Virus record (IMG/VR): IMGVR_UViG_3300031963_000875
Coordinates: 1 to 24,998 of that record
Reading direction: 5' to 3' (one strand)
Origin: a virus
DNA: 24,998 bases
The notes under the pieces were generated by a model. That model had not been told where the DNA came from, did no database searches, and worked only from the letters and a program-made list of their open reading frames with translations. Position 1 is the stretch's first letter. Every line of letters starts with the position of its first letter. Made by a program: the position numbers and the translations under genes. This document shows positions 9,232-22,396 of the stretch, in pieces.

Positions 9232-9545
9232 TACTTCCGTTGGCGGATCAACCTTTCAGCGTCTGCGCTGAATTCAAACCCGTCTACCGGGTAAGAATAC
9301 ATCGAGCCGTCGTTCCACAACACAAACATCTGGCCGTTGACGTAAGCGTAGCAGCCGAAAATGCCGATCTCACCGCCGTTGCCCGTTGTGTAAACGAGAT
9401 GCTGGCCGTCCTTGCACTCGCTTTTAATCAGCGTAAAGACGATCTGCCCTTGGTCTTTGTTGCGCATCGTCCCGAGAATCGTCACCTCTTGGGCTGTTGC
9501 TACTGTCGTCAACGCCGCCATCGCGGCAATCCATAGACTTTTCAT
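9231..9545 (-). CDS. Small secreted (periplasmic) phage protein, paralogue of 15715-16089
   Basis: 104 residues from ATG 9545, which overlaps the upstream stop (TGATG) and follows GGGAGGTG. A signal peptide is clear: basic start, hydrophobic core WIAAMAALTTVATA, probable cleavage before QE. The mature part has two cysteines (SECKDG and FGCYAY), with YTTGNGG and FVLWNDG and SYPVDGF between and after them. The same order (Cys, YTGxG, GCW, VLVW, WPIxxF) occurs in the secreted protein at 15715-16089, so the two are distant paralogues. A disulphide-linked periplasmic protein is predicted. An effect on the envelope, such as superinfection exclusion, is speculation. Confidence 0.75.
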   Translation of the reverse strand: MKSLWIAAMAALTTVATAQEVTILGTMRNKDQGQIVFTLIKSECKDGQHLVYTTGNGGEIGIFGCYAYVNGQMFVLWNDGSMYSYPVDGFEFSADAERLIRQRK

Positions 9546-10078
9546 CACACACCTCCCGTTCGAGCTTTGAGTCGTTGAACACCTTTCTCGCCATAAACTT
9601 CGCGGATAAACGACACGAGAGACGGGTCGCCAAGTATGTCACCGGGTGGCATAGAGCGAACGATCTCGCCGACTTTATCCTTGAGCCATTCGCGGTTGTC
9701 CTGCCCGAACGGGGCTAGGTCTACCGTGTACCGCGCCCACAGGGCTTCCGCGAGTCGCAGTTTTCCAATTGGGGTAATGACGACTTCCTGCCAAGTCTTC
9801 GATGACCGGGCTACGTCAGCCTCAAGGCGGGCTTGTTCGAGGGCGACTTGTTTGTCTGTTTTAACCGGCTTCTCGCCAGGTTGAGGCAGGGCTTTCTTGA
9901 GGTCGAACAGCCCTTGCCACTGATTGCTGATGCTCTGGTCTACAACTTCAGCCTGATCTTTACCGTATCTAGCCAGCTTCAACTTCATCGCGTTTTCGCT
10001 TGCAGGCTTGATCGGTTTCTTGATTGCAGTTCGATAGGCTTTCCATCTCTCCCATGCCTCTGTATCTAGTTCTTGCAT
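9545..10078 (-). CDS. Replication-associated protein (DnaT / phage O C-domain-like)
   Basis: 177 residues behind a strong SD (GGGGGTAAGAG). The N-terminal part reads WERWKAYRTAIKKPIKPAS, then LKLARYGKD and VVDQSISNQWQGLFDLKK. This WxxWxxYR..KKP......Q/SI.N.WQGLF pattern is known from the C-terminal region of phage replication proteins and DnaT-like helicase-loading proteins. Here that block is N-terminal and is followed by a Lys/Pro linker and a helical C-terminal part ending in KARTGG. A role in loading the helicase or organising replication is inferred. It is the first sizeable gene after the cro-like regulator in the leftward operon. Confidence 0.65.
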   Translation of the reverse strand: MQELDTEAWERWKAYRTAIKKPIKPASENAMKLKLARYGKDQAEVVDQSISNQWQGLFDLKKALPQPGEKPVKTDKQVALEQARLEADVARSSKTWQEVVITPIGKLRLAEALWARYTVDLAPFGQDNREWLKDKVGEIVRSMPPGDILGDPSLVSFIREVYGEKGVQRLKARTGGV

Positions 10079-10210: not shown

Positions 10211-10446
10211 TCACGCTTCCCGACTACACGCCGCGTGCCCACAGGCTGGCTGCCCCGGTGTGGGTTTAAGTTCAATCTGCGCGTAGTTTCCCCGACCAGA
10301 TCGAACCGAGCGTGTAAGGTAGGTTGACAAACCCAGAACGGGCGGTCACTATTCTGACACGCGAATCTCGTAACTTCAGCGTATGGCAACCAGATTGCCA
10401 CGTCAAGCCCCCGACCGTCCCCCGTTCGGGGGTTTTTCGTTTTCAC
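10126..10446 (-). CDS. Possible arginine-rich protein overlapping an antisense RNA locus
   Basis: A 106-residue frame whose GTG start overlaps the stop of the cro-like gene (GTGA), the junction seen throughout this genome. The protein is Arg/Pro/Trp-rich (GLDVAIWLPYAEVTRFA, FWVCQPTLHARFDLVG, RRVVGKREWQRESVK) without a motif that I can name. It superficially recalls the small Ash-type frames of temperate phages. Against it: no SD, odd composition, competition with the 42-residue frame at 10082-10210, and a promoter plus terminator on the opposite strand inside it. Treat as doubtful. Confidence 0.3.
   Translation of the reverse strand: MKTKNPRTGDGRGLDVAIWLPYAEVTRFACQNSDRPFWVCQPTLHARFDLVGETTRRLNLNPHRGSQPVGTRRVVGKREWQRESVKSRRQQDGSVSHQSLHELLQA
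10324..10352 (+). promoter_or_regulatory. Candidate sigma-70 promoter for a short antisense RNA
   Basis: A perfect -35 hexamer TTGACA (10324-10329), a 17-bp spacer, then CACTAT (10347-10352) as a moderate -10. Transcription would start near 10357-10359 and run rightward, against the leftward operon, to the terminator at 10437. The cro-side promoter at 10648 has the same TTGACAA start and an ACTAT element, so the two may share a regulator. Confidence 0.5.
10357..10437 (+). ncRNA. Candidate ~80-nt antisense RNA (lambda OOP-like)
   Basis: Between the promoter at 10324-10352 and the rho-independent terminator ending at 10437 lies a segment of about 80 nt with no rightward gene. It can form a 6-bp stem (TGGCAA 10384-10389 with TTGCCA 10395-10400, 5-nt loop) and then the terminator hairpin. 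It is antisense to the leftward operon mRNA immediately downstream of the cro-like gene and upstream of the replication-type gene. In lambda, OOP RNA is a ~77-nt transcript of this kind between cII and O. The placement, size and terminator are visible; expression is inferred. Confidence 0.5.
10419..10437 (+). terminator. Rho-independent terminator (rightward)
   Basis: CCCCC (10419-10423), loop GTTC, GGGGG (10428-10432) and TTTTT (10433-10437). It works only in the plus direction, since the complementary strand has no U-run. The neighbouring genes on both sides run leftward to 8642 or start beyond 10709, so it most likely ends the short antisense RNA and keeps rightward transcription out of the cro/early region. 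Confidence 0.8.
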
Positions 10447-10619
10447 GGCTGGCGCTCGTTCACGACAAATTTATTTTTCGTCATCTTTTGAATTTGGTAT
10501 TGCCGCAAGAGCGGTATCCCGCCGTCTTTCCACTGGTAAATGGCCTGCGGATATATGTCGAGCGCCTTTGCCATTGCCTTGACGCTGCCGAAATGTTTGA
10601 TGACCGTTTCTAGTTTCAT
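10443..10619 (-). CDS. Cro-like transcriptional regulator
   Basis: 58 residues from ATG 10619: MKLETVIKHFGSVKAMAKAL (20 residues), then DIYPQAIYQWKDGGIPLLRQ (20 residues), then a basic C-terminus. This is a Cro/YdaS-type helix-turn-helix: GSVKAMAKALDI is the first helix-turn and YPQAIYQWK the recognition helix, close to lambdoid Cro pattern and size. It should bind operators in the divergent region 10620-10708 and control both the leftward operon and the rightward recombination operon. The in-frame ATGs at 10637 and further upstream lack an SD. The chosen ATG starts about 7 nt after a -10 element, so the mRNA may be leaderless. No CI partner is visible in the window. Confidence 0.8.
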   Translation of the reverse strand: MKLETVIKHFGSVKAMAKALDIYPQAIYQWKDGGIPLLRQYQIQKMTKNKFVVNERQP

Positions 10620-10625
10620 GGCGGC

Positions 10626-10654
10626 AGTATGGGCCATAAAAGATTTCTTGACAA
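10626..10654 (-). promoter_or_regulatory. Leftward promoter of the cro-like operon
   Basis: Reading the minus strand: TTGTCA (10654-10649), 17-bp spacer, CATACT (10631-10626; 4 of 6 matches to TATAAT). The predicted start falls at or next to the ATG at 10619, so the regulator mRNA would have essentially no 5' leader, as for lambda cI made from PRM. The -35 overlaps the rightward promoter's -35 almost completely. Confidence 0.6.
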
Positions 10655-10675
10655 GTTTACTGGAAAGCGTACTAT
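10648..10675 (+). promoter_or_regulatory. Rightward early promoter of the recombination operon
   Basis: TTGACA (10648-10653), 16-bp spacer, TACTAT (10670-10675; 4 of 6). It gives a start near 10682 and a ~27-nt leader with AGGAGA before the ATG at 10709. Overlap of its -35 with that of the leftward promoter means that one bound repressor, or one RNA polymerase, would exclude the other direction. Confidence 0.65.
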
Positions 10676-10708
10676 CGACTGCGGGGATTGGCCCCACAGG
10701 AGAAAAAC

Positions 10709-15082: not shown

Positions 15083-15142
15083 CTAATCCGAAAGCACTTC
15101 GAGCAATAGCGCGACTGCCAGCGCGACCAATAATGCCGTCAT
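15083..15142 (-). CDS. 19-residue membrane microprotein
   Basis: A minus-strand frame ATG 15142 to TAG 15083, encoding MTALLVALAVALLLEVLSD: one uninterrupted hydrophobic helix with an acidic end. Its ATG overlaps the stop of the gene before it (ATGA), the coupling used all through this operon, and GAGGAGG lies about 10 bases upstream. These three features make translation likely although the frame is too short for usual gene finders. It is the last frame of the leftward early operon. A regulator of an inner-membrane protein is possible but unproven. Confidence 0.55.
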   Translation of the reverse strand: MTALLVALAVALLLEVLSD

Positions 15143-15384
15143 TTGTTCCGCGCCTCCTCAATCAGTCCCATGTAATAGGCCAGCAGCCGTTCCTCTTTGA
15201 GCGCGGACGCTGCCACGGCTTGCAGCATCCAGACCGCAGGGCCACCCCCTGCACAGGCTAGGATGCCGCGCAAGGCTTTCTCGTAACGGTCTGCGCGTTC
15301 GTCGGGCGACTCCCACGCCTTCGGCACGAACGGCTCGTCGGCGAATAAAGCCTCGCGTTCCTCGTCAGATAAAAGCCAACTCAT
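15139..15384 (-). CDS. Small leftward early protein, function unknown
   Basis: 81 residues behind GGGGGTG at good spacing. The sequence opens with MSWLLSDEEREALFADEPF, has DERADRYEKALRGILACAG, and ends in a helix LLAYYMGLIEEARNK. It looks like a small soluble helical protein with an acidic start. No family is recognised. It ends with ATGA overlap on the 19-residue membrane frame and begins 8 bases after the stop of the short gene at 15393-15521. Confidence 0.8.
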   Translation of the reverse strand: MSWLLSDEEREALFADEPFVPKAWESPDERADRYEKALRGILACAGGGPAVWMLQAVAASALKEERLLAYYMGLIEEARNK

Positions 15385-15392
15385 AACACCCC

Positions 15393-15521
15393 CTAGTGAT
15401 AATCGCAGGACGCACTACGCCTTGACGACCGCACGTTAGGGGGCGGGACATACCGCCACGACTCCCACCGTTTGGGCCGCCATGCCGAGGGACGAAAGAG
15501 GGAGAGCAGCCACCGGATCAC
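15393..15521 (-). CDS. Small Trp/Arg-rich protein (42 aa)
   Basis: A frame from GTG 15521 (overlapping the stop of the upstream gene as GTGA) to TAG 15395-15393. The product starts VIRWLLSLFRPSAWRPKRWE (20 residues) and continues SWRYVPPPN, ending in an Arg/Ser tail: a short hydrophobic, amphipathic start, then Trp/Arg-rich, then Pro-rich. It fills what would otherwise be a 130-bp gap, and the gene coupling is the same as elsewhere. Amphipathic Trp/Arg helices often bind membranes, but no function can be given. Confidence 0.6.
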   Translation of the reverse strand: MIRWLLSLFRPSAWRPKRWESWRYVPPPNVRSSRRSASCDYH

Positions 15522-15718
15522 GGGGCTGCCTCCGCCTTACGCTGATCCACAATTCGCTGCGCCAGGTCTAAGCCGTGGTCTAGGCCCATACTGAACACCG
15601 CGTCTGTGAATCGCTCGAACGACTCCGAATCGAACACGAATTCTGGGCCGTCCACCTCGTCGGGAATCACGGTAGCCCCACACGCGGCGGCAACTTTCCC
15701 GAGTTGGTCGAGCGTCAT
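15518..15718 (-). CDS. Small acidic early protein, function unknown
   Basis: 66 residues from ATG 15718, which overlaps the upstream stop (ATGA). The sequence MTLDQLGKVAAACGATVIPD then SESFERFTDAVFSMG and LDLAQRIVDQRKAEAAP suggests a small alpha/beta protein. Longer starts (TTG 15733, or another frame) are not supported. Its stop overlaps the GTG of the 42-residue gene. No motif is recognised. Confidence 0.75.
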   Translation of the reverse strand: MTLDQLGKVAAACGATVIPDEVDGPEFVFDSESFERFTDAVFSMGLDHGLDLAQRIVDQRKAEAAP

Positions 15719-16089
15719 TTGGCATCGTCCCAAGTCGGACGGGTCGCGGCTTGGGCGGGTCGGCCTTCTGCTGTGATTTTGAAGTTACCGATGGGCCAGC
15801 GGCGCATGATGTTCTCGGTCGGCCATACCAGCACCACTGTTCCCGCGTCGTGCTTCCAGCAGCCCTCGTTCGTCATACCGTCGCCCGTGTAATAAAAGGC
15901 GCGGTTCATCTTCCCGAGTAATGCCTTATTCGTTCCGAGTTGGAATGAATCCATTTTGAACTCGCACGGCTCAGTCGTTAGCACGGTGCGGCCTTTGCTG
16001 TCGCCTTTGACGCCACCGATAGCGAACGTCTCCGCGTGAGCAGCCGATATAGAAGCGGCAAGGGTCGCCGCGATAATTAAGTTACGCAT
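15715..16089 (-). CDS. Small secreted (periplasmic) phage protein, paralogue of 9231-9545
   Basis: 124 residues from ATG 16089, preceded by CTGGAGA; the longer start at 16134 would bury the signal peptide. The signal peptide is MRNLIIAATLAASISAAHA, with cleavage after AHA. The mature part has TEPCEFK, then FYYTGDGMTNEGCWKHDAG, VVLVWPTEN and RRWPIGNFKI. The two cysteines and the YTGxG, GCW, VLVW and WPIxxF positions match the order in the protein at 9231-9545, so they are likely paralogues. It should be exported and disulphide-bonded. It has an extra ~15-residue insertion before YYTG and an extended C-terminus. Confidence 0.8.
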   Translation of the reverse strand: MRNLIIAATLAASISAAHAETFAIGGVKGDSKGRTVLTTEPCEFKMDSFQLGTNKALLGKMNRAFYYTGDGMTNEGCWKHDAGTVVLVWPTENIMRRWPIGNFKITAEGRPAQAATRPTWDDAK

Positions 16090-16172
16090 ACAAAGTCTCC
16101 AGTTACCATAATGATGCCGACATTGGCACCCCATAACGCACGGTCGCCCATGCGCTACAGGCTGACAAGGCT

Positions 16173-16355
16173 TTAGGTTTCGTCGTTTGCCTCGCCCTCT
16201 GCGGTGTCATCGTAGGCAGGATCGCGGGAATCTATCCAACGGACGCGACGGCGCGGAACGTAGCCGATAGCGTCGGCTGCGGCCTCTCGCTCCGCTTGGT
16301 GGCGGCTATAGCCCGCGTCCATGTAACGCTCAATTGAGTCTCGATATTCGCTCAT
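16173..16355 (-). CDS. Small acidic/basic early protein, function unknown
   Basis: 60 residues, SD GGAGG, start overlapping the upstream stop (ATGA). The N-terminal half is a helix (MSEYRDSIERYMDAGYSRHQ then AEREAAADAIGYV), followed by a basic RRRVRW patch and a strongly acidic tail ending in EGEANDET. The helix-basic-acidic layout could be a protein mimic or a nucleic-acid-binding peptide, but nothing identifies it. Confidence 0.7.
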   Translation of the reverse strand: MSEYRDSIERYMDAGYSRHQAEREAAADAIGYVPRRRVRWIDSRDPAYDDTAEGEANDET

Positions 16356-16522
16356 ACGGCCTCCAAAAATTGGTTAGGATCGGCGCGGTACTTTTCGCAC
16401 GCCATTACCACAGCAAGGTTGACGCGGACATCTTCGGGCAACCCGATAGAGTTCGGCTGATTCAATAAACGGATGACCTCGGCGGCGATGGCATCGGCAA
16501 GGCGGGTTTCGCTAGCGTTCAT
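16352..16522 (-). CDS. Small helical early protein (56 aa)
   Basis: A frame from ATG 16522 to TGA 16354-16352, too short for many gene finders. The product reads MNASETRLADAIAAEVIRLL (20 residues), then NQPNSIGLPEDVRVNLAVVM and EKYRADPNQFLEAV. It has GAGGAG about 9 bases upstream, and both its start and stop overlap neighbouring genes by ATGA, so it fills the gap exactly and is very probably real. Function unknown. Confidence 0.75.
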   Translation of the reverse strand: MNASETRLADAIAAEVIRLLNQPNSIGLPEDVRVNLAVVMACEKYRADPNQFLEAV

Positions 16523-16725
16523 GCTGCAAACTCCTCGCTAACGTTGGCTTCATATTCAAGCAATAAATCGTCGTCCGACATCTTTTCGTACCCTACAAAC
16601 CCATAAGCAAGGTAGTCGGCAAGCAATCCGATGTCGCCTTGCTGCATGGCTTCGCGGATATAATTGATCGACTCCGCCACGAGCGCGTCGATGAGTTCCT
16701 CACGGGATGGTGTAGCGTTTTTCAT
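16519..16725 (-). CDS. Small acidic early protein, function unknown
   Basis: 68 residues with GAGGGC upstream. It is acidic and helical (REELIDALVAESINYIREAM, then DDDLLLEYEANVSEEFAA). Acidic small proteins of this type are common early-gene products in phages and may bind host proteins, though that is only an inference. Stop overlaps the next gene's ATG (ATGA). Confidence 0.75.
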   Translation of the reverse strand: MKNATPSREELIDALVAESINYIREAMQQGDIGLLADYLAYGFVGYEKMSDDDLLLEYEANVSEEFAA

Positions 16726-16735
16726 GGTTTAGCCC

Positions 16736-16972
16736 TCAATAGACTTGGATAGGGCAGTTATGGAGAGCGGCGCGGCCTTCTGCCCATGTTAGGGCCGCGT
16801 CAAGTGTCGGAAAGTCCATCTCCGCGCCATGGTCAAACGTCCCGCCCTCGTCGGTTACGGTTCGCTCGTAAGCGCACCAGCCGTCTGGGTTGTCGTCTGC
16901 GTCGCAGTATTCAGAGCCTATTTCATTCATCCGAAAACCGTGGACGTAGACTGCCTCAATTGGTTGCTTCAC
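16736..16972 (-). CDS. Small early protein, function unknown
   Basis: 78 residues from GTG 16972, chosen because GGGGGTG lies 5-8 bases upstream and because the start is 2 bases after the previous stop; the longer ATG at 17011 would overlap that gene. The sequence contains VYVHGFRMNEIG, DADDNPDGWCAYERTV, and DFPTLDAALTWAEGRAALHN. The DGWCAYERTV and FxTLDAALxWAE phrases look like a compact alpha/beta protein that I do not recognise. Confidence 0.75.
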   Translation of the reverse strand: MKQPIEAVYVHGFRMNEIGSEYCDADDNPDGWCAYERTVTDEGGTFDHGAEMDFPTLDAALTWAEGRAALHNCPIQVY

Positions 16973-16974
16973 GG

Positions 16975-17238
16975 TTACACCCCCAACGCTCTGTCGATGG
17001 CGTCTCTGCAAACGTCTCCGGTCAAAATCCCGCCAACGTCATCCATGCGACCGTCTAGCCATGCTTCGCGCACCTCTTTAAGAATTGCAAGAAGGTCGGG
17101 CGCGGCTGCGATAAGGTCGCCGTTGAACTGGTCGCGGCGAGGGGTGAGCATACAAACTGCTTTGCCCTCAGAATCGACCACCTTTACGCTTGCGCCGTTG
17201 CTCCCGACGACCCACGGGGCGGGGCTTGCGGAGATCAT
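16975..17238 (-). CDS. Ea22-like/phage early protein with IAAAPDLL motif
   Basis: 87 residues. It has SPAPWVVGSNGASVKVVDSE (20 residues), then DLIAAAPDLLAILKEVREAW, the second being a very common block in phage early proteins related to Ea22-like and DUF-type sequences. Such proteins occur in early leftward regions of many phages with no assigned function. The N-terminus is beta-like, the C-terminus helical. Start overlaps the upstream stop (ATGA). Confidence 0.8.
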   Translation of the reverse strand: MISASPAPWVVGSNGASVKVVDSEGKAVCMLTPRRDQFNGDLIAAAPDLLAILKEVREAWLDGRMDDVGGILTGDVCRDAIDRALGV

Positions 17239-17606
17239 GCGGCCTCCGCGAGAAATGCAACCGTATTGCCGCGACGGTTCGGGACGGGTGACAAGGTAAG
17301 GCCAGCGGCTTCCGCGATGCGGCGCATGGACTCAACACCGCAACCGCCGTCCAGCACGATGCGCCCCGTTCGCTTGCAGCGGCGCATACCGTTGAAAGAG
17401 GCGGCATGGTGCGCGATTGTCTCCAGCCGGTCTTGATAGCGGTCGGCAAGCCAGTTGCCGAGAACTGTCCCGATCATGTCAAAGCCACCGCCACAAGTGC
17501 GGTAGCGTTTGCCGGTGTAAGTGTCCTTTAATCGGCAGATATTCCAGCCATACGAACCCTGCCCACGCGACTTAGACCAGTCGATTAAAAGCGATGTCCG
17601 TTCCAT
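17235..17606 (-). CDS. Conserved phage protein with RYRTCGGGFDM motif
   Basis: 123 residues from ATG 17606, behind GAGAGGT; the longer frame to 17678 is not supported. The central KRYRTCGGGFDMIGTVLGNW (20 residues) resembles a block conserved in small phage early proteins. A second half has GRIVLDGGCGVESMRRIAEA (20 residues). The two Gly/Cys turns could make a metal or nucleotide site, but the function is unknown. It is preceded by the reiterated leader sequence at 17612-17634. Confidence 0.75.
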   Translation of the reverse strand: MERTSLLIDWSKSRGQGSYGWNICRLKDTYTGKRYRTCGGGFDMIGTVLGNWLADRYQDRLETIAHHAASFNGMRRCKRTGRIVLDGGCGVESMRRIAEAAGLTLSPVPNRRGNTVAFLAEAA

Positions 17607-17611
17607 GTGTT

Positions 17612-17634
17612 TACCTCTCAGTAATAGATTGTTT
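17612..17634 (-). repeat. Reiterated early-gene leader, copy A
   Basis: On the minus strand this is an AAACAATCTATTA block followed by the SD GAGAGGTA, ending 6 bases before the ATG at 17606. It fills the 29-bp gap between two genes. Copy B (18212-18233) shares AATAGATTGTTT exactly as read on the plus strand; copy C (18490-18510) differs at few positions. Confidence 0.65.
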
Positions 17635-17635
17635 G

Positions 17636-17785
17636 TTAGTCGTTCAATAGTCGAAAGAAACCGAAACCCAAAGCACACGCTACGCCCAAGTGATAGACCC
17701 CCAAACGTGCGGACGGCTCAACCCATGGGGCGGCGATAAGTAGGCAAAGGGCGAAAGCAAGTAGCAGCGAGGAATAGCGGTTCAC
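17636..17785 (-). CDS. Small membrane protein (49 aa, two helices)
   Basis: 49 residues from GTG 17785, with AAGAGGGTAT upstream and GTGA overlap with the stop of the gene before. Two hydrophobic segments (RYSSLLLAFALCLLIAAPW and YHLGVACALGFGFF) are separated by a polar VEPSARLG turn, so it should be an inner-membrane hairpin. The longer ORF in the same frame is not plausible. Function unknown; a membrane-active early protein is likely. Confidence 0.7.
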   Translation of the reverse strand: MNRYSSLLLAFALCLLIAAPWVEPSARLGVYHLGVACALGFGFFRLLND

Positions 17786-17931
17786 GGGTATACCCTCTTG
17801 GCTGTTAAGTAATGGGTCGGCGTTGACACCATTTCGGAAGCGACAGCGATTGCAGCCCGAGCCGATCTCGCAAGGATTCGAGCGACGGCTAGGTTGGTTG
17901 TGCCAATGTAGTAAACATTCCAAAATGACAT
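17782..17931 (-). CDS. Small early protein (49 aa), possible membrane association
   Basis: 49 residues from ATG 17931, with GTGAGGTG at ideal spacing. Sequence MSFWNVYYIGTTNLAVARIL (20 residues) then ARSARAAIAVASEM and a polar tail. The N-terminus is aromatic and amphipathic and could sit on the membrane. Coupled to the membrane gene at 17636-17785 by GTGA. No family is recognised. Confidence 0.7.
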   Translation of the reverse strand: MSFWNVYYIGTTNLAVARILARSARAAIAVASEMVSTPTHYLTAKRVYP

Positions 17932-17939
17932 GGCGCACC

Positions 17940-18206
17940 TCACAGCACGAAATCGGCAAGCGTGGACGCGAACATCTCGCCCCATTGGTTGCCGTTGGCG
18001 GTGACGAAATAAACTGGCTCGAAACGGTTATAGAGTCCGTTGAACTCTGTTCGGGAATAAGCGATGCCTACGCACTCACCTTGGCGTAGATCGTTAGTGC
18101 CGTTTTCCGTGAAAACATGGGACGCAACCAACGCAGTGCGATAGTTCTTATACTTTTCGGCGTTGCGGTAGTAATCGGCGTAGTTGAAACGGTCATAAAT
18201 TCTCAT
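17940..18206 (-). CDS. Small aromatic-rich early protein, function unknown
   Basis: 88 residues with the SD GAGGGTAT 4-6 bases upstream and the repeated leader copy B in front. Very rich in Tyr/Asn/Arg at the start (MRIYDRFNYADYYRNAEKYK, 20 residues), with a later GECVGIAYSRTEFNGLYNRF (20 residues) segment. The pattern suggests an alpha/beta protein with a strand-rich second half. No motif is recognised. Its position, early in a leftward operon near the control region, points to an immediate-early role. Confidence 0.75.
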   Translation of the reverse strand: MRIYDRFNYADYYRNAEKYKNYRTALVASHVFTENGTNDLRQGECVGIAYSRTEFNGLYNRFEPVYFVTANGNQWGEMFASTLADFVL

Positions 18207-18211
18207 GGTGA

Positions 18212-18233
18212 TACCCTCTTAATAGATTGTTTT
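18212..18233 (-). repeat. Reiterated early-gene leader, copy B
   Basis: On the minus strand: AAACAATCTATTA, then the SD GAGGGTA, ending 6 bases before the ATG at 18206. It fills most of the 32-bp gap between two genes. It shares AATAGATTGTTT (plus strand) with copy A and TACCCTC with copy C. Confidence 0.7.
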
Positions 18234-18238
18234 ATGAG

Positions 18239-18484
18239 TTACGGAATGGCAGGAACGCAAACGGGGCCAAGGATTCGACCAGATTTTGGGAACACGAGAT
18301 CGTGTGCGAACTTGTTTGCGTCGTCGTAATCATTAAAGAACACGACACCAGCCACCATGTCTGCATCGAGATCAGTCAACACAACCTTGTAAGGATGATC
18401 GTTGCCGGTTCGTAACGCTGGCGAACGATAAATGACAGCGGATTCCATGCCGGTTGTCGTGTTCGTGTAAGTTTCAAGTTGCAT
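18239..18484 (-). CDS. First gene of leftward early operon, function unknown
   Basis: 81 residues from ATG 18484. The upstream ATG 18490 touches GAGGGT with no spacing, whereas 18484 has the same 6-base spacing seen in the other repeated leaders, so it is preferred. The sequence has MQLETYTNTTTGMESAVIYR (20 residues) and a second part VVFFNDYDDANKFAHDLVFP. It is mostly beta-like with an acidic loop. As the promoter-proximal gene it may be the first protein made. Function is unknown. Confidence 0.75.
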   Translation of the reverse strand: MQLETYTNTTTGMESAVIYRSPALRTGNDHPYKVVLTDLDADMVAGVVFFNDYDDANKFAHDLVFPKSGRILGPVCVPAIP

Positions 18485-18489
18485 TGTCA

Positions 18490-18510
18490 TACCCTCATAA
18501 AAGACTGTTT
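18490..18510 (-). repeat. Reiterated early-gene leader, copy C
   Basis: On the minus strand: AAACAGTCTTTTA, then GAGGGTA, ending 5-6 bases before the ATG at 18484. It matches copies A and B with a few changes. A fourth, SD-less AAACAATCCTTTA lies at 18535-18547, and a partial copy (TACCCTCTT) precedes the GTG at 17785. Confidence 0.65.
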
Positions 18511-18563
18511 GGTTATCGAACGAATGAGAGTGTAAAGGATTGTTTTACGGAATACACGAAAAC

Positions 18564-18716
18564 CGTAGTCAGTGACCATCACGCGGATAACGGGTGACTA
18601 CGCAAGAAACATCACGGAAAACAATGCTTTTCGCTACCGTGTAGTCAAAAGAGGGTAAAAGGTATAAGAGATAGAATCTCTCTCATCTAAAAGATGAACC
18701 TCCGTAGTCATGACTA
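18564..18716. repeat. GTAGTCA repeat cluster with palindrome
   Basis: GTAGTCA occurs at 18565-18571, 18641-18647 and 18704-18710, and the complement TGACTAC at 18595-18601. The third copy runs into TAGTCATGACTA (18705-18716), a 12-bp perfect palindrome. The CCGT(GT)AGTCA context of the plus copies is constant, so this is a repeated site, most likely for a DNA-binding protein. Confidence 0.6.
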
Positions 18717-18898
18717 TTTACTACATGAGACCCATTCTCATTTAGACTGTTGTATCTACGCAACAACCTTCCCTAGCATAGTTATGGGAATTCCCTTGCA
18801 TGGTCTGTCTGTTGTATCCACGCAACACGTTGCATCTATGCAATATCTCGCATGGTTGTAGCGTCTACGCAACATCCTAGTAATGAGACGCAATCTCA
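18667..18898. repeat. Three GAGA-N5-TCTC dyads
   Basis: Sites at 18667-18681 (AGAGA-N5-TCTCT), 18726-18740 (TGAGA-N5-TCTCA) and 18884-18898 (TGAGA-N5-TCTCA). Each has 5-bp arms and a 5-bp centre, and the second and third flank the iteron cluster. Uniform spacing suggests binding of one homodimeric protein. Confidence 0.6.
18749..18873 (+). repeat. Iteron-like repeats (4 copies)
   Basis: GTTGTATCTACGCAAC at 18749-18764, GTTGTATCCACGCAAC at 18811-18826, GTTGCATCTATGCAAT at 18829-18844, and GTTGTAGCGTCTACGCAAC at 18855-18873. All are direct copies of the same orientation with a weak internal symmetry (GTTG...CAAC). The last is the first sequence with GCG inserted after GTTGTA. Iterons of this kind mark replication origins or operators. 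Confidence 0.8.
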
Positions 18899-18906
18899 AC
18901 ATGACA

Positions 18907-18933
18907 GGGGGGGTGGGGGTAGGGGGTACAGGG
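18907..18933 (+). other. Perfect G-quadruplex motif
   Basis: Four G-runs: 7 G (18907-18913), 5 G (18915-18919), 5 G (18922-18926) and 3 G (18931-18933), with loops of 1, 2 and 4 bases. This satisfies the canonical G3+N1-7 rule on the plus strand. It lies between the iterons and the AT-rich segment, 285 bp before the terminase operon. Confidence 0.85.
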
Positions 18934-18948
18934 CCAGGCTGTGTACCG

Positions 18949-18977
18949 TTGACGTGTACGTAAGGTCCACGAACAAT
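18949..18977 (+). promoter_or_regulatory. Candidate promoter P1 of terminase operon
   Basis: TTGACG (18949-18954), 17-bp spacer, AACAAT (18972-18977). The -35 has 5 of 6 matches and the -10 has 4 of 6. It points rightward to the packaging genes. A second candidate lies 43 bp downstream. Confidence 0.4.
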
Positions 18978-18991
18978 TTTTATTTTTTTTA

Positions 18992-19020
18992 TTTACAAAA
19001 CTATTTGTTACCCGTATCTT
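18992..19020 (+). promoter_or_regulatory. Candidate promoter P2 of terminase operon
   Basis: TTTACA (18992-18997), 17-bp spacer, TATCTT (19015-19020); 5 of 6 and 4 of 6 matches. Starts would be near 19027, giving a ~190-nt leader. It overlaps the AT-rich stretch, so chance similarity is possible. Confidence 0.4.
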
Positions 19021-19217
19021 TCTTGCCACAACGTCTGACGTGGTGCGCACGTAGCGACCGAGAGGAAGCTGAAAGCAGGATGAAATCTCCAGTTACCCGT
19101 TCTGCTGTAAAACTAAGGCAAATGTCCGCCTCGGCACACAGGCTCCATGGTTGTTGGAGATCGCGGCCTCCCGGCAGGATGACCCTGCACGTTACTGGGG
19201 TAGTCTGAGGAGCTTTT

Positions 19218-19562
19218 ATGCCCAAGAATGCGACTTACGTTCCGACCCCTGCTGAACAGGAAGCGTTGAATTACCATCGACGCAACCTTGAGGCTGGTAC
19301 TTACTTGCAGAACCCGGATGGGTCGCTGACCACCTTTTACGGCACTGTCGTCGGTGACGATCAGGGAGCAATGCTTATTCCGACCTTTTGGCACGGAGCC
19401 GTCCGCGACCCTGAGCAGGCCATGCGCTTCGCTATTAAGTCGGGGATTCAGTTTCCTCGATATAAAGACACGGCACGGGCTTTGGCTGCTGAACGAGCGT
19501 TGCACGACATCATGGAAGCCGAAACGTCTGCTTTTGCCAAAAAGAAGGCCGCTAAACGGTGA
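19218..19562 (+). CDS. Phage protein upstream of terminase, function unknown
   Basis: 114 residues behind GAGGAG at good spacing. The sequence has AEQEALNYHRRNLEAGTYLQ, then GAMLIPTFWHGAVRDPEQAM and FPRYKDTARALAAERALHDI, ending in Lys-rich KKAAKR. Such small proteins with LIPT..W and FP.Y.....A...LH are frequent just before terminase genes in podophages. The function is not known; a packaging or head-associated role is inferred by position. Coupled to the next gene by GTGA. Confidence 0.8.
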   Translation: MPKNATYVPTPAEQEALNYHRRNLEAGTYLQNPDGSLTTFYGTVVGDDQGAMLIPTFWHGAVRDPEQAMRFAIKSGIQFPRYKDTARALAAERALHDIMEAETSAFAKKKAAKR

Positions 19563-20044
19563 CTGAACCGTCCTTTCGTTCGATCCCTTTTGAGCCTCGT
19601 GAACTGAAGGCTTCGCCTGACGTTCTGGAGAGGATTTACGAGGCGTCTAAGCTTGGCCTCAAGGGTGATGCCATGGCCTTTGCCGCTGGCCTCTTGCCGA
19701 TAGAGTATCGTCGGCTTTTGCAGTTAGATAAGGCTGCGTCCATTGCCGAGGCTAAGGGTCGTGCCGACAGTGAGGTTGAGGCGGCTACCGTTTTGCGTGG
19801 AGCGGCTCTTGAGGGAGATAGCAAGGCGGCTCTCGCGCTCCTCACCCACTTGCACGATTGGGTTGCCCGCCAGCAAGTTCAGGTCGATATTAAATCGCAA
19901 ATCAGCATCGTTGCGGCACTGCAAGAGGCGGAGTCTCGCGTCATCGAGGGCCGAGTATTGCGAGAGGAAACGCCTGCACTAGAACACTCGCCGAACCGGC
20001 TTTTAGAGTTAGACTCTAAGCACCATGCAACAGCCGATTTATAG
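19559..20044 (+). CDS. terS: Terminase small subunit-like protein
   Basis: 161 residues from GTG 19559 (GTGA overlap). The core has LLPIEYRRLLQLDKAASIAE (20 residues), then GRADSEVEAATVLRGAALEG (20 residues) and SKAALALLTHLHDWVARQQV (20 residues). This pattern, helical with an HDWVAxQQVQV end, is known from small terminase-like proteins directly preceding terL. It should bind the packaging site and recruit the large subunit. Its 3' end overlaps the terL start by 20 bases. The assignment rests on position plus pattern. Confidence 0.75.
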   Translation: MTEPSFRSIPFEPRELKASPDVLERIYEASKLGLKGDAMAFAAGLLPIEYRRLLQLDKAASIAEAKGRADSEVEAATVLRGAALEGDSKAALALLTHLHDWVARQQVQVDIKSQISIVAALQEAESRVIEGRVLREETPALEHSPNRLLELDSKHHATADL

Positions 20045-21551
20045 CCCCGAAGACGAGCAACTCTTGATGTCCAAGGTCTGGGCACCCCAGATTAAAGACG
20101 ACCCGGAAGCGTTCGTGCTGCTCGTGTTTCCTTGGGGGAAACCCGGCACGCCGCTGGAGCATTTTAAAGGCCCGCGCAAATGGCAGCGCAAGATACTTCG
20201 CGATATTGCTGCGCACATTGCCAAGAATAAAACCGCCACCGCCTACGAAGTCTTGCGCATGGCGACGGCTTCGGGACGCGGTATCGGTAAATCCGCACTG
20301 GTGTCGTGGTTAATCCTGTGGATGCTTTCGACCCGGATTGGCTCAACGACCATTGTGTCGGCCAACTCGGAAGCCCAGCTTCGCTCAGTCACTTGGGCAG
20401 AAATCACCAAGTGGGCGGCGTTGTTGCTCAATTCGCATTGGTTTGAGATTAGCGCGACCCGCGTGATGCCCGCTAAATGGATCGCTGAACTCGTTGAGCG
20501 CGACCTTAAAGTCGGCACCCGTTATTGGTCCGTGGAAGGTCGTTTGTGGTCGGAAGAAAACCCCGACTCCTATGCCGGTGTCCACAACCAGGCAGGCGTT
20601 ATGGTGATCTTCGATGAAGCCTCCGGTATTCCCGATTCCATTTGGTCGGTCACGGCAGGCTTCTTTACGGAAAACACACCGCACCGATTCTGGTTGGCGT
20701 TCTCTAACCCCCGTCGTAACGAAGGCTACTTCTTCGAGGCGTTCCATGCGAAAAGAAACTTCTGGCAAACCCAAAACATCGACGCCCGCGAAGTCGAAGA
20801 CACGGACAAAGGCGTCTACGAGCAAATCATCGCGGAATACGGCGCGGACTCAAAGCAAGCGAAAGTCGAAGTCTACGGGCAATTCCCGAGCGACTCCGAC
20901 GACCAGTTCATCCCTCCCAGCATTGTTGACCAAGCAGTTTCTCGACCACGCTACCAGGACGCGCACGCGGTACGAGTTATCGGAGTCGATCCTGCGCGAA
21001 CGGGCGCAGACTCCACGGTTATCGTGGTCCGAGAAGGCCGCGATCTGGTGGCAGTCCGTCGTTACAACGGCGAAGATACGATGGCAACGGTTGGGCGAAT
21101 TATTGATGCTATCGAAGAGTGGCAACCCGCGCTGGTGGTTTTAGACGAAGGCGGATTGGGGTATGGCATTCTTGACCGCTTAAAAGAGCAGCGGTATAAG
21201 GTCGTTAGAGGCGTCAATTTCAGTTGGAAATCTAAAACCCCACAAATGTATGCGAATAAACGCGCAGAACTGTGGGGTTTAATGCGTGAGTGGTTGCAAA
21301 GCGCATCCATCCCGAACGATAAACAACTGAAAGCTGATCTCTCTGCACCGCACCAGAAACCGAATTCGTCAGGTTCGATCCAGTTGGAAAGCAAAAAGGA
21401 AATGAAATCACGAGGATTGCCGTCGCCCGACGCGGCTGACGCCCTTGCGTGTACGTTTGCTTACCCGGTCGCGAATCGCGAATACCGCGAACGACCGCGC
21501 ACCGTTAATGCGTATCAAGGCGGCGTCGTGAACTCATGGATGGGTGCATAA
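20025..21551 (+). CDS. terL: Terminase large subunit
   Basis: 508 residues. The ATPase has Walker A GRGIGKSA (84-91), Walker B VMVIFDEA (192-199), and a coupling segment FSNPRR (226-231). The nuclease domain has VDPARTGADST (Asp322), VVLDEGG (Asp374) and SPDAADAL (467-474), the three acidic positions of phage terminase RNase H-like nucleases. Length is usual. The protein pumps DNA through the portal and cuts the concatemer. It precedes the portal by ~1.2 kb that holds a DUF6321-like gene, an HNH endonuclease and short basic genes. No truncation is seen. Confidence 0.95.
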   Translation: MQQPIYSPEDEQLLMSKVWAPQIKDDPEAFVLLVFPWGKPGTPLEHFKGPRKWQRKILRDIAAHIAKNKTATAYEVLRMATASGRGIGKSALVSWLILWMLSTRIGSTTIVSANSEAQLRSVTWAEITKWAALLLNSHWFEISATRVMPAKWIAELVERDLKVGTRYWSVEGRLWSEENPDSYAGVHNQAGVMVIFDEASGIPDSIWSVTAGFFTENTPHRFWLAFSNPRRNEGYFFEAFHAKRNFWQTQNIDAREVEDTDKGVYEQIIAEYGADSKQAKVEVYGQFPSDSDDQFIPPSIVDQAVSRPRYQDAHAVRVIGVDPARTGADSTVIVVREGRDLVAVRRYNGEDTMATVGRIIDAIEEWQPALVVLDEGGLGYGILDRLKEQRYKVVRGVNFSWKSKTPQMYANKRAELWGLMREWLQSASIPNDKQLKADLSAPHQKPNSSGSIQLESKKEMKSRGLPSPDAADALACTFAYPVANREYRERPRTVNAYQGGVVNSWMGA

Positions 21552-22241: not shown

Positions 22242-22396
22242 TGGCGGCTAAAAAAGGTTTGTACGCGAACATTCACGCTAAACGGAAGCGTATCGCTGCC
22301 GGATCGGGCGAAAAAATGCGCAAAGTAGGTGCAAAAGGCGCACCGACGGCCAAAGCGTTCCGTCAATCTGCCAAAACCGCTAAACGGAGAAAGTAA
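22241..22396 (+). CDS. Short basic phage protein (51 aa)
   Basis: 51 residues from ATG 22241 (TAATG) to TAA 22394-22396. The product MAAKKGLYANIHAKRKRIAA (20 residues) continues GSGEKMRKVGAKGAPTAKAF, ending in a Lys/Arg tail. This is a well-known short phage protein pattern (KKGLYANIHAKR), found before portal genes in many podophages. It is probably a nucleic-acid or assembly accessory; no experimental role is known to me. Confidence 0.85.
   Translation: MAAKKGLYANIHAKRKRIAAGSGEKMRKVGAKGAPTAKAFRQSAKTAKRRK

Follow-up and report, generated by a model that had tools for sequence, protein, structure and literature searches.

A predicted structured RNA at the terminase genes of a P22-portal phage fragment and its uncultured relatives

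The non-coding segment and its repeat-rich left half

The window analyzed here is the entire IMG/VR record IMGVR_UViG_3300031963_000875 (24,998 bases, positions 1 to 24,998), a genome fragment without end repeats; related viral records of complete appearance are ~37-38 kb long. Judged by its sequence, it is a fragment of a P22-portal phage (portal protein PF16510, E 1e-177), and its gene content includes an Erf-like annealing protein, a YqaJ/RecE-type exonuclease, a DUF5906 primase-type protein and, at 10443-10697, a P22-Cro-like regulator. Two gene blocks diverge from a central gap that is bounded by a leftward ORF start at 18490 (-) and a rightward ORF start at 19218 (+). The leftward block consists of small ORFs without known function (15139-18490) and is presumably early, and the rightward block, which carries the terminase genes, is presumably late (Table 1). 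The initial annotation had called the gap a 0.73-kb non-coding segment, which agrees with these boundaries; ORFs within it (e.g. 18852-19208 +) are without support as genes. A homologue of the first rightward ORF is found after terS in relatives L006, L025 and L026.

Table 1 Features of the non-coding segment and flanking genes (window positions; both-side changes are those in the 30-sequence alignment).
Feature	Position	Strand	Remarks
First ORF of leftward small-gene block	18239-18490	-	83 aa, no family
GTAGTCA/TGACTAC repeats, including palindrome TAGTCATGACTA	18565, 18595, 18641, 18704 (span 18565-18716)		Swapped for other 7-8-mers in relatives
Palindrome AGAGATAGAATCTCT	18667-18681
Palindrome TCATCTAAAAGATGA	18683-18697
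Palindrome TAGTCATGACTA	18705-18716
Palindrome ATGAGA-N5-TCTCAT	18725-18741
Imperfect dyads GTTGYRTCTAYGCAAC, n=4	18749, 18811, 18829, 18858 (span 18749-18873)		
Block X: G-run (G-quadruplex pattern), GGGCC, ~40 nt, then ACAATTTTTATTTTTTTT (ACAAAAATTTTTTATTTTTT)	18907-18995		Core pattern 18931-18981
Predicted sigma70-type promoter TTTACA-17-TATCTT	18992-19020	+	Predicted transcription start at about the first base of P1
Predicted structured RNA, ~165 nt	19027-19193	+	7 helices (P1, P2, P1b, P3, P4, P6, P7), 37 consensus pairs
P1 closing stem, AACGT with ACGTT	19030-19034 with 19189-19193	+	7/8 pairs with both-side changes; 8 pairs in many relatives
P2 hairpin ACGTG-GTGCG-CACGT	19038-19052	+	100% paired; four pair types at one position; ACCAG/CTGGT in other phages
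P1b, GCGA with TCGC	19054-19057 with 19161-19164	+	Invariant, hence neutral evidence
P3, 5' strand CCGAG-A-GG	19058-19065 with 19126-19134	+	4/7 pairs with both-side changes; 99.5% paired
P4 variable hairpin AGCAG...CTGCT	19074-19106	+	73% paired in simple alignment; length very variable
P6 hairpin CTCCA-TGGTTGT-TGGAG	19143-19159	+	4/5 pairs with both-side changes; 100% paired
P7 hairpin GCAGG-ATGAC-CCTGC	19174-19188	+	3/5 pairs with both-side changes; 100% paired
First rightward ORF past the RNA	19218-19562	+	114 aa, no family; Shine-Dalgarno GAGGAG at 19207
Putative terminase small subunit (terS)	19559-20044	+	Precedes TerL, conserved; no PHROG match
Terminase large subunit (TerL)	20025-21551	+	PHROG 5902 and 2

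The repeats, palindromes, G-quadruplex motif and AT-rich stretch previously listed for this segment are present and clustered, and they have equivalents in relatives. Allowing up to 3 mismatches, GTTGYRTCTAYGCAAC yields 5 matches (4 sites) window-wide, all in the control region, against 1.29 expected, and the motif also occurs in L013, L004, L010, L094 and L124. All 4 copies of GTAGTCA lie in the control region as well (1.43 expected over the whole window). The G-quadruplex pattern at 18907-18933 is the sole one in the window when both strands are scanned, and an AT-rich stretch covers ~18972-19005. Taken singly, the 7-mer and palindrome counts are modest; the features are considered non-random because they are clustered and because equivalent clusters lie at the same place in relatives.

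A conserved feature among these is a composite block, here called block X (Table 1). Among non-redundant relatives, it lies upstream of the RNA described below, or of the terS promoter, in 38 of the 48 that carry the RNA and in 29 of the 38 that lack it (shuffle maximum 2), counts that rest on a hand-adjusted pattern applied identically to the shuffles. Many more distant TerL relatives without the RNA still have block X. Upstream of it, most lineages carry their own array of 7-8-mers in both orientations, the 7-mer being GTGGGCA, TGACCCA, GTAGGCA, CACTAAC, GTTAGTA, ATGGTCA or GTAGTCA according to lineage, and these arrays beat every shuffle in 26 of 38 RNA-bearing and 24 of 29 RNA-less relatives. 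A fast-changing array next to a constant block fits the action of a phage-specific DNA-binding protein, either an initiator or a repressor. The left half of the segment, comprising block X and the arrays, is a control or origin-like region and a module separate from the RNA.

Two further repeats were seen in relatives. A sequence resembling a Fur-box-type sequence (GAGAATCATTTGC/ATGAGAATCATTAGC) recurs right before the G-run in L013, L016, L019, L021 and L148, and tandem runs of GGCTGAC occur in the control region of L019 (~12 copies, upstream of the RNA) and L048 (~6 copies, upstream of terS).

A structured RNA in the right third of the segment

Positions 18200-20100 of the window were compared with contigs encoding related TerL proteins. 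The non-coding stretch 19029-19197 shows identities of up to 96% over 72 bp among phages with terS DNA of only 73-78% identity. Within it, short segments change together: CCAG/CTGG is replaced by CGTG/CACG, CTCC/GGAG by CTCG/CGAG or CCAC/GTGG, and CCGAG/CTCGG by CTGGA/TCCAG or CCGGG/CCCGG. To assess covariation, 30 diverse sequences were aligned plainly with MAFFT and compared with a structure written by hand. Changes on both sides were found in 23 of 37 pairs and 94.6% of cells were paired, values that 0 of 500 shuffles reach; the covariation score was 0.360, compared with 0.147 for shuffled and 0.05-0.10 for slid partners, and pairing falls to 30-44% when partners are slid by 1-3 columns. 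RNAalifold alone regains most of the same helices, and the covariation picture is unchanged in a fitted alignment that comprises 68 distinct sequences. Covariance model R1 scores the window at 149.7 bits (E 1.9e-33), a value for a sequence that is itself among the 30 behind the model. Support for the RNA is comparative only, because folding energy of the single window sequence is not significant, the fold being no more stable than shuffles (z +1.03). P1 and P3 join strands separated by 60-160 nt, with hairpins of varying length between them, and the natural reading is therefore a fold within a single strand, in practice RNA. On this comparative evidence, 19027-19193 almost certainly encodes a real structured RNA. 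Its length ranges from 119 to 214 nt across loci, and its large unpaired core is invariant. Minimal variants suggest a pseudoknot of AGGC (19116-19119) or GAGG (19062-19065) with GCCUC (19166-19170); the compensating changes of the minimal forms involve the GGCCUCCC strand and the bases concerned are otherwise invariant, and the pseudoknot is not claimed here.

The RNA appears to have its own promoter. Of 44 non-redundant upstream sequences, 39 have the hexamer TAnnnT starting 9 or 10 nt ahead of the element (shuffle single-position maximum 9); since these sequences are related, the 39 matches are not independent of one another. A TTG-type -35 is also present in many, at a spacing of 16-18 nt, and the L163 group has TAGGGT in the same place. 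This fixed offset predicts a transcription start at about the first base of P1. In L016, L013, L087, L111 and L117, direct and inverted copies of a motif, ATCCTTTAYTARC, surround the RNA promoter and in some of these phages take in the -10 box; the motif is likely an operator of the late promoter.

Downstream, a start codon lies within ~50 nt of the RNA in nearly all sequences examined. In L139, L141 and L157 the distance to terS is 2-10 nt, which makes co-transcription hard to avoid there, and transcription of the RNA together with the terminase genes is presumed more generally. No conserved terminator follows the RNA, in that 28 of 38 non-redundant downstream sequences lack, just past the RNA, a 9-nt stretch holding at least 6 T, and in some phages a U-rich tract lies directly past P1. 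Many main-lineage relatives have a second promoter-like sequence, by consensus match only, between the RNA and the next start codon.

The initial annotation missed both the promoter (18992-19020) and the RNA. Its description of the segment as a complex control region holds insofar as the segment lies between divergent gene blocks and next to terS; the right third (19027-19193) is instead an RNA gene or leader.

Phage groups, natural variants and distribution

At least three phage groups, which differ in their TerL and portal proteins, carry the RNA at their terminase genes. In the main lineage, it lies directly before, or up to 360 nt before, the putative terS. In L135, L163 and L231-L234 it follows a TerS-like gene and lies just before the genes leading to TerL (checked in L135, L163, L231 and L232), and in L209, L211 and L213 it lies between small genes and TerS (checked in L209 and L211), 2 nt past the upstream gene of the same operon and without a clear promoter. 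The predicted promoter start coincides with P1 in two of the three groups. TerL proteins of the other groups fall in PHROG 38/2/979 and their portals in PHROG 1216, with one of SU10 type, compared with PHROG 5902/2 and a P22 portal in the window. The gene after the RNA also varies, and may be terS, an orphan ORF, a 59-60-aa gene or a ferredoxin-family gene. In L135, the position directly past the RNA is taken by the counterpart of a small window gene (~22243-22396, KKGLYANIHAKRKRIAAGSGEKMRK...) that has DNA matches to hypothetical genes of many cyanophages, roseophages and pelagiphages. The same locus encodes a 623-aa TerL (1102-2973, -) with an insertion resembling an intein, which is missing from the L163 and L231 homologues.

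Two kinds of natural variant were found. A minimal RNA of 119 nt, in which a short loop replaces the inner P3 domain, occurs in L230 (8103-8221), L231 (9020-9138) and L232 (4961-5079). In L022 (3640-3800) and L023, which come from two metagenomes, a deletion takes the promoter along with the RNA, of which just the last bases are left; these contigs otherwise align with RNA-bearing relatives, and they retain block X, terS and, between them, the second promoter-like sequence. Provided that they represent genuine phage genomes, the RNA forms a module of its own, one that this sub-lineage can do without.

The covariance model detects the RNA in at least ~120 viral loci, made up of 95 of 100 loci of one set and ~25 more; this is a lower bound, and the 100-locus set was gathered mostly by motif and includes the model's own sequences. 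It is single-copy in each of four RNA-bearing phage records of 38-57 kb. Rfam 15 gives 0 matches in the window at gathering score and chance-level matches only with permissive filters, and no tRNA or tmRNA was found. No match to the RNA was obtained among INPHARED phages or PLSDB plasmids. A pattern scan of GTDB species genomes gave eight pattern matches only, none full-length or convincing, and a search of 398 sampled Pseudomonadota genomes, run without a positive control, did not find the RNA. A Streptomyces match (L207, 25.8 bits) was rejected, as the pattern had pre-selected for the same bases and most of the core is missing. TerL relatives of ~78% identity or less gave no match to the RNA, and neither did a few closer ones, although some of these have contigs that end short of the site; the nearest named phage, the metagenome-assembled DSL-LC05, is without it. 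No description of the RNA was found in the open-access literature searched. The RNA family thus appears to be new, with neither an Rfam counterpart nor a description that we could find.

Possible functions and known counterparts

The RNA probably helps to turn on the late genes of the phage. We tentatively read it as a cis-acting leader of the late transcript, with antitermination as its likeliest mode, an assignment by analogy that we consider plausible while still holding it just short of probable. Transcription from its own sigma70-type promoter would place the RNA first in the rightward (late, terminase-first) transcript, the RNA would fold while leaving RNA polymerase, and the folded leader would alter how the long operon that follows is expressed, most plausibly through processive antitermination in the manner of HK022 put, with a fold larger than and unrelated to put. 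The parts of this proposal that find support in comparison are the fold, the place just before terminase-region genes in three groups and the predicted promoter start at P1 in two. Because the next gene varies, an operon-wide leader fits better than single-gene control, and because the core is fixed across different terminases, its partner would be something conserved in the host or a metabolite rather than TerS or TerL; RNA polymerase would be the first candidate for this partner. In G005, a mostly rightward gene block of ~25 kb lies behind the RNA, and put, which needs no dedicated protein, is known to act over distances of 10 kb or more (PMC9378689). Points against a leader are the lack of a clear promoter in L209/L211/L213, the second promoter-like sequences and the loss of the RNA from L022/L023. 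A terminator scan of the late operons of three RNA-bearing phages and one RNA-less phage did not point either way.

Two other roles of the RNA itself are serious rivals. One, somewhat unlikely, is riboswitch-like cis control of translation or attenuation, whereby an aptamer senses a metabolite or state and P1 gates the terminase operon. P1 does close the element, with its 3' strand mostly 2-50 nt before a start codon, and the large invariant unpaired core and the U-rich tract seen past P1 in some phages would suit such a device; however, the first gene differs among lineages, no conserved terminator follows, the T-rich stretch being missing from 28 of the 38 downstream sequences, and no conserved Shine-Dalgarno partner was seen. 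The other, slightly less likely again, is action in trans, for instance in packaging, after the manner of phi29 pRNA, or by binding a host factor. It is favored by the predicted promoter of the RNA, by its paired ends, by its place beside terminase genes in three groups whose terminases differ and, in many relatives, by a second promoter-like sequence behind it, whereas the core stays constant while TerS, TerL and portal families change, a conserved terminator is missing, the RNA is naturally deleted in L022/L023 and some terS start codons lie almost on P1. The narrower version, in which the RNA acts as RNA in packaging or its timing across unrelated terminases and so forms a phi29 pRNA counterpart outside the phi29 group, we regard as distinctly improbable.

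The segment had also been interpreted as DNA, namely as an origin, operator or packaging site. For the whole segment including the RNA part, a cos/pac or origin site is disfavored to the point of being very hard to believe. Proximity to terS and DNA identity of up to 96% over 72 bp between phages would agree with it, but such a site fails to explain 19027-19193, because helix partners up to ~160 nt apart covary; the compensatory changes link strands 60-160 nt apart, a predicted promoter sits exactly at the 5' end, hairpins of variable length lie inside and the deletion in L022/L023 is clean. Confined to 18490-18995, the interpretation may be right, for an origin, an operator and a packaging site alike. 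There, block X and the arrays may be a replication origin or packaging site, which would be compatible with a leader RNA and which we rate as possible though doubtful. An iteron origin would combine direct repeats bound by its initiator with an AT-rich region for unwinding; repeat arrays in both orientations, a G-run and an AT-rich tract are present at the same place in most relatives, the repeat motif differing per lineage, and an O-like/DnaT-like protein is encoded at 9545-10078. Against this, the arrays are equally expected as phage-repressor operators between divergent operons, GC skew, used as an origin test, shows no switch or origin signal at the control region, and block X often ends beside a promoter, that of terS or of the RNA, where an upstream activating element would be expected.

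Whichever role applies, Rfam-based annotation is blind to a complex, strongly covarying RNA that more than 100 viral loci carry, placed where the late genes of common uncultured phages begin. Should it act by modifying RNA polymerase, it would count as the second phage antiterminator made of RNA alone, with a structure unlike the first, and could serve as a portable expression tool. Packaging RNAs are as a rule confined to the phi29 group, and a packaging role here would be an exception. Both ideas lend themselves to direct tests in vitro, thanks to the minimal 119-nt form and the natural deletion.

Among known RNAs, GOLLD and ROOL are likewise structured, and most of what is known of them comes from environmental and phage-related sequences. 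They are several times larger than the ~165-nt RNA, which has no Rfam match to either. Riboswitch aptamers resemble it as multi-helix RNAs with an invariant core in a 5' leader, and in the position of P1 beside a start codon, but it has no Rfam aptamer match, its next gene varies and there is no conserved expression platform. The phi29 pRNA is a phage RNA tied to DNA packaging genes, with paired 5' and 3' ends. The RNA described here likewise lies at packaging genes and has paired ends, but it is without an Rfam match, lies beside ordinary TerS/TerL types and is lost in one sub-lineage; its absence from L022/L023 and from many TerL relatives suggests that it is not generally needed for packaging.

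Phage-encoded structured leader RNAs are already known as a kind of element. In HK022, put contacts the beta' zinc-binding domain of RNA polymerase, with terminator suppression as the effect. It is the nascent put RNA that binds the polymerase. PutL lies directly downstream of its promoter and putR ~270 nt downstream (PMC9378689). Put is ~70 nt long with two stem-loops and belongs to early operons (PMC9378689), whereas the RNA described here is ~165 nt long with seven helices and belongs to terminase or late genes, a difference in architecture that counts against the leader proposal. The likeness drawn here is one of placement. Like putL and putR, this RNA is phage-encoded and lies near a predicted sigma70 promoter, behind which, with the exception of L209/L211/L213, it precedes a long operon whatever the next gene is.
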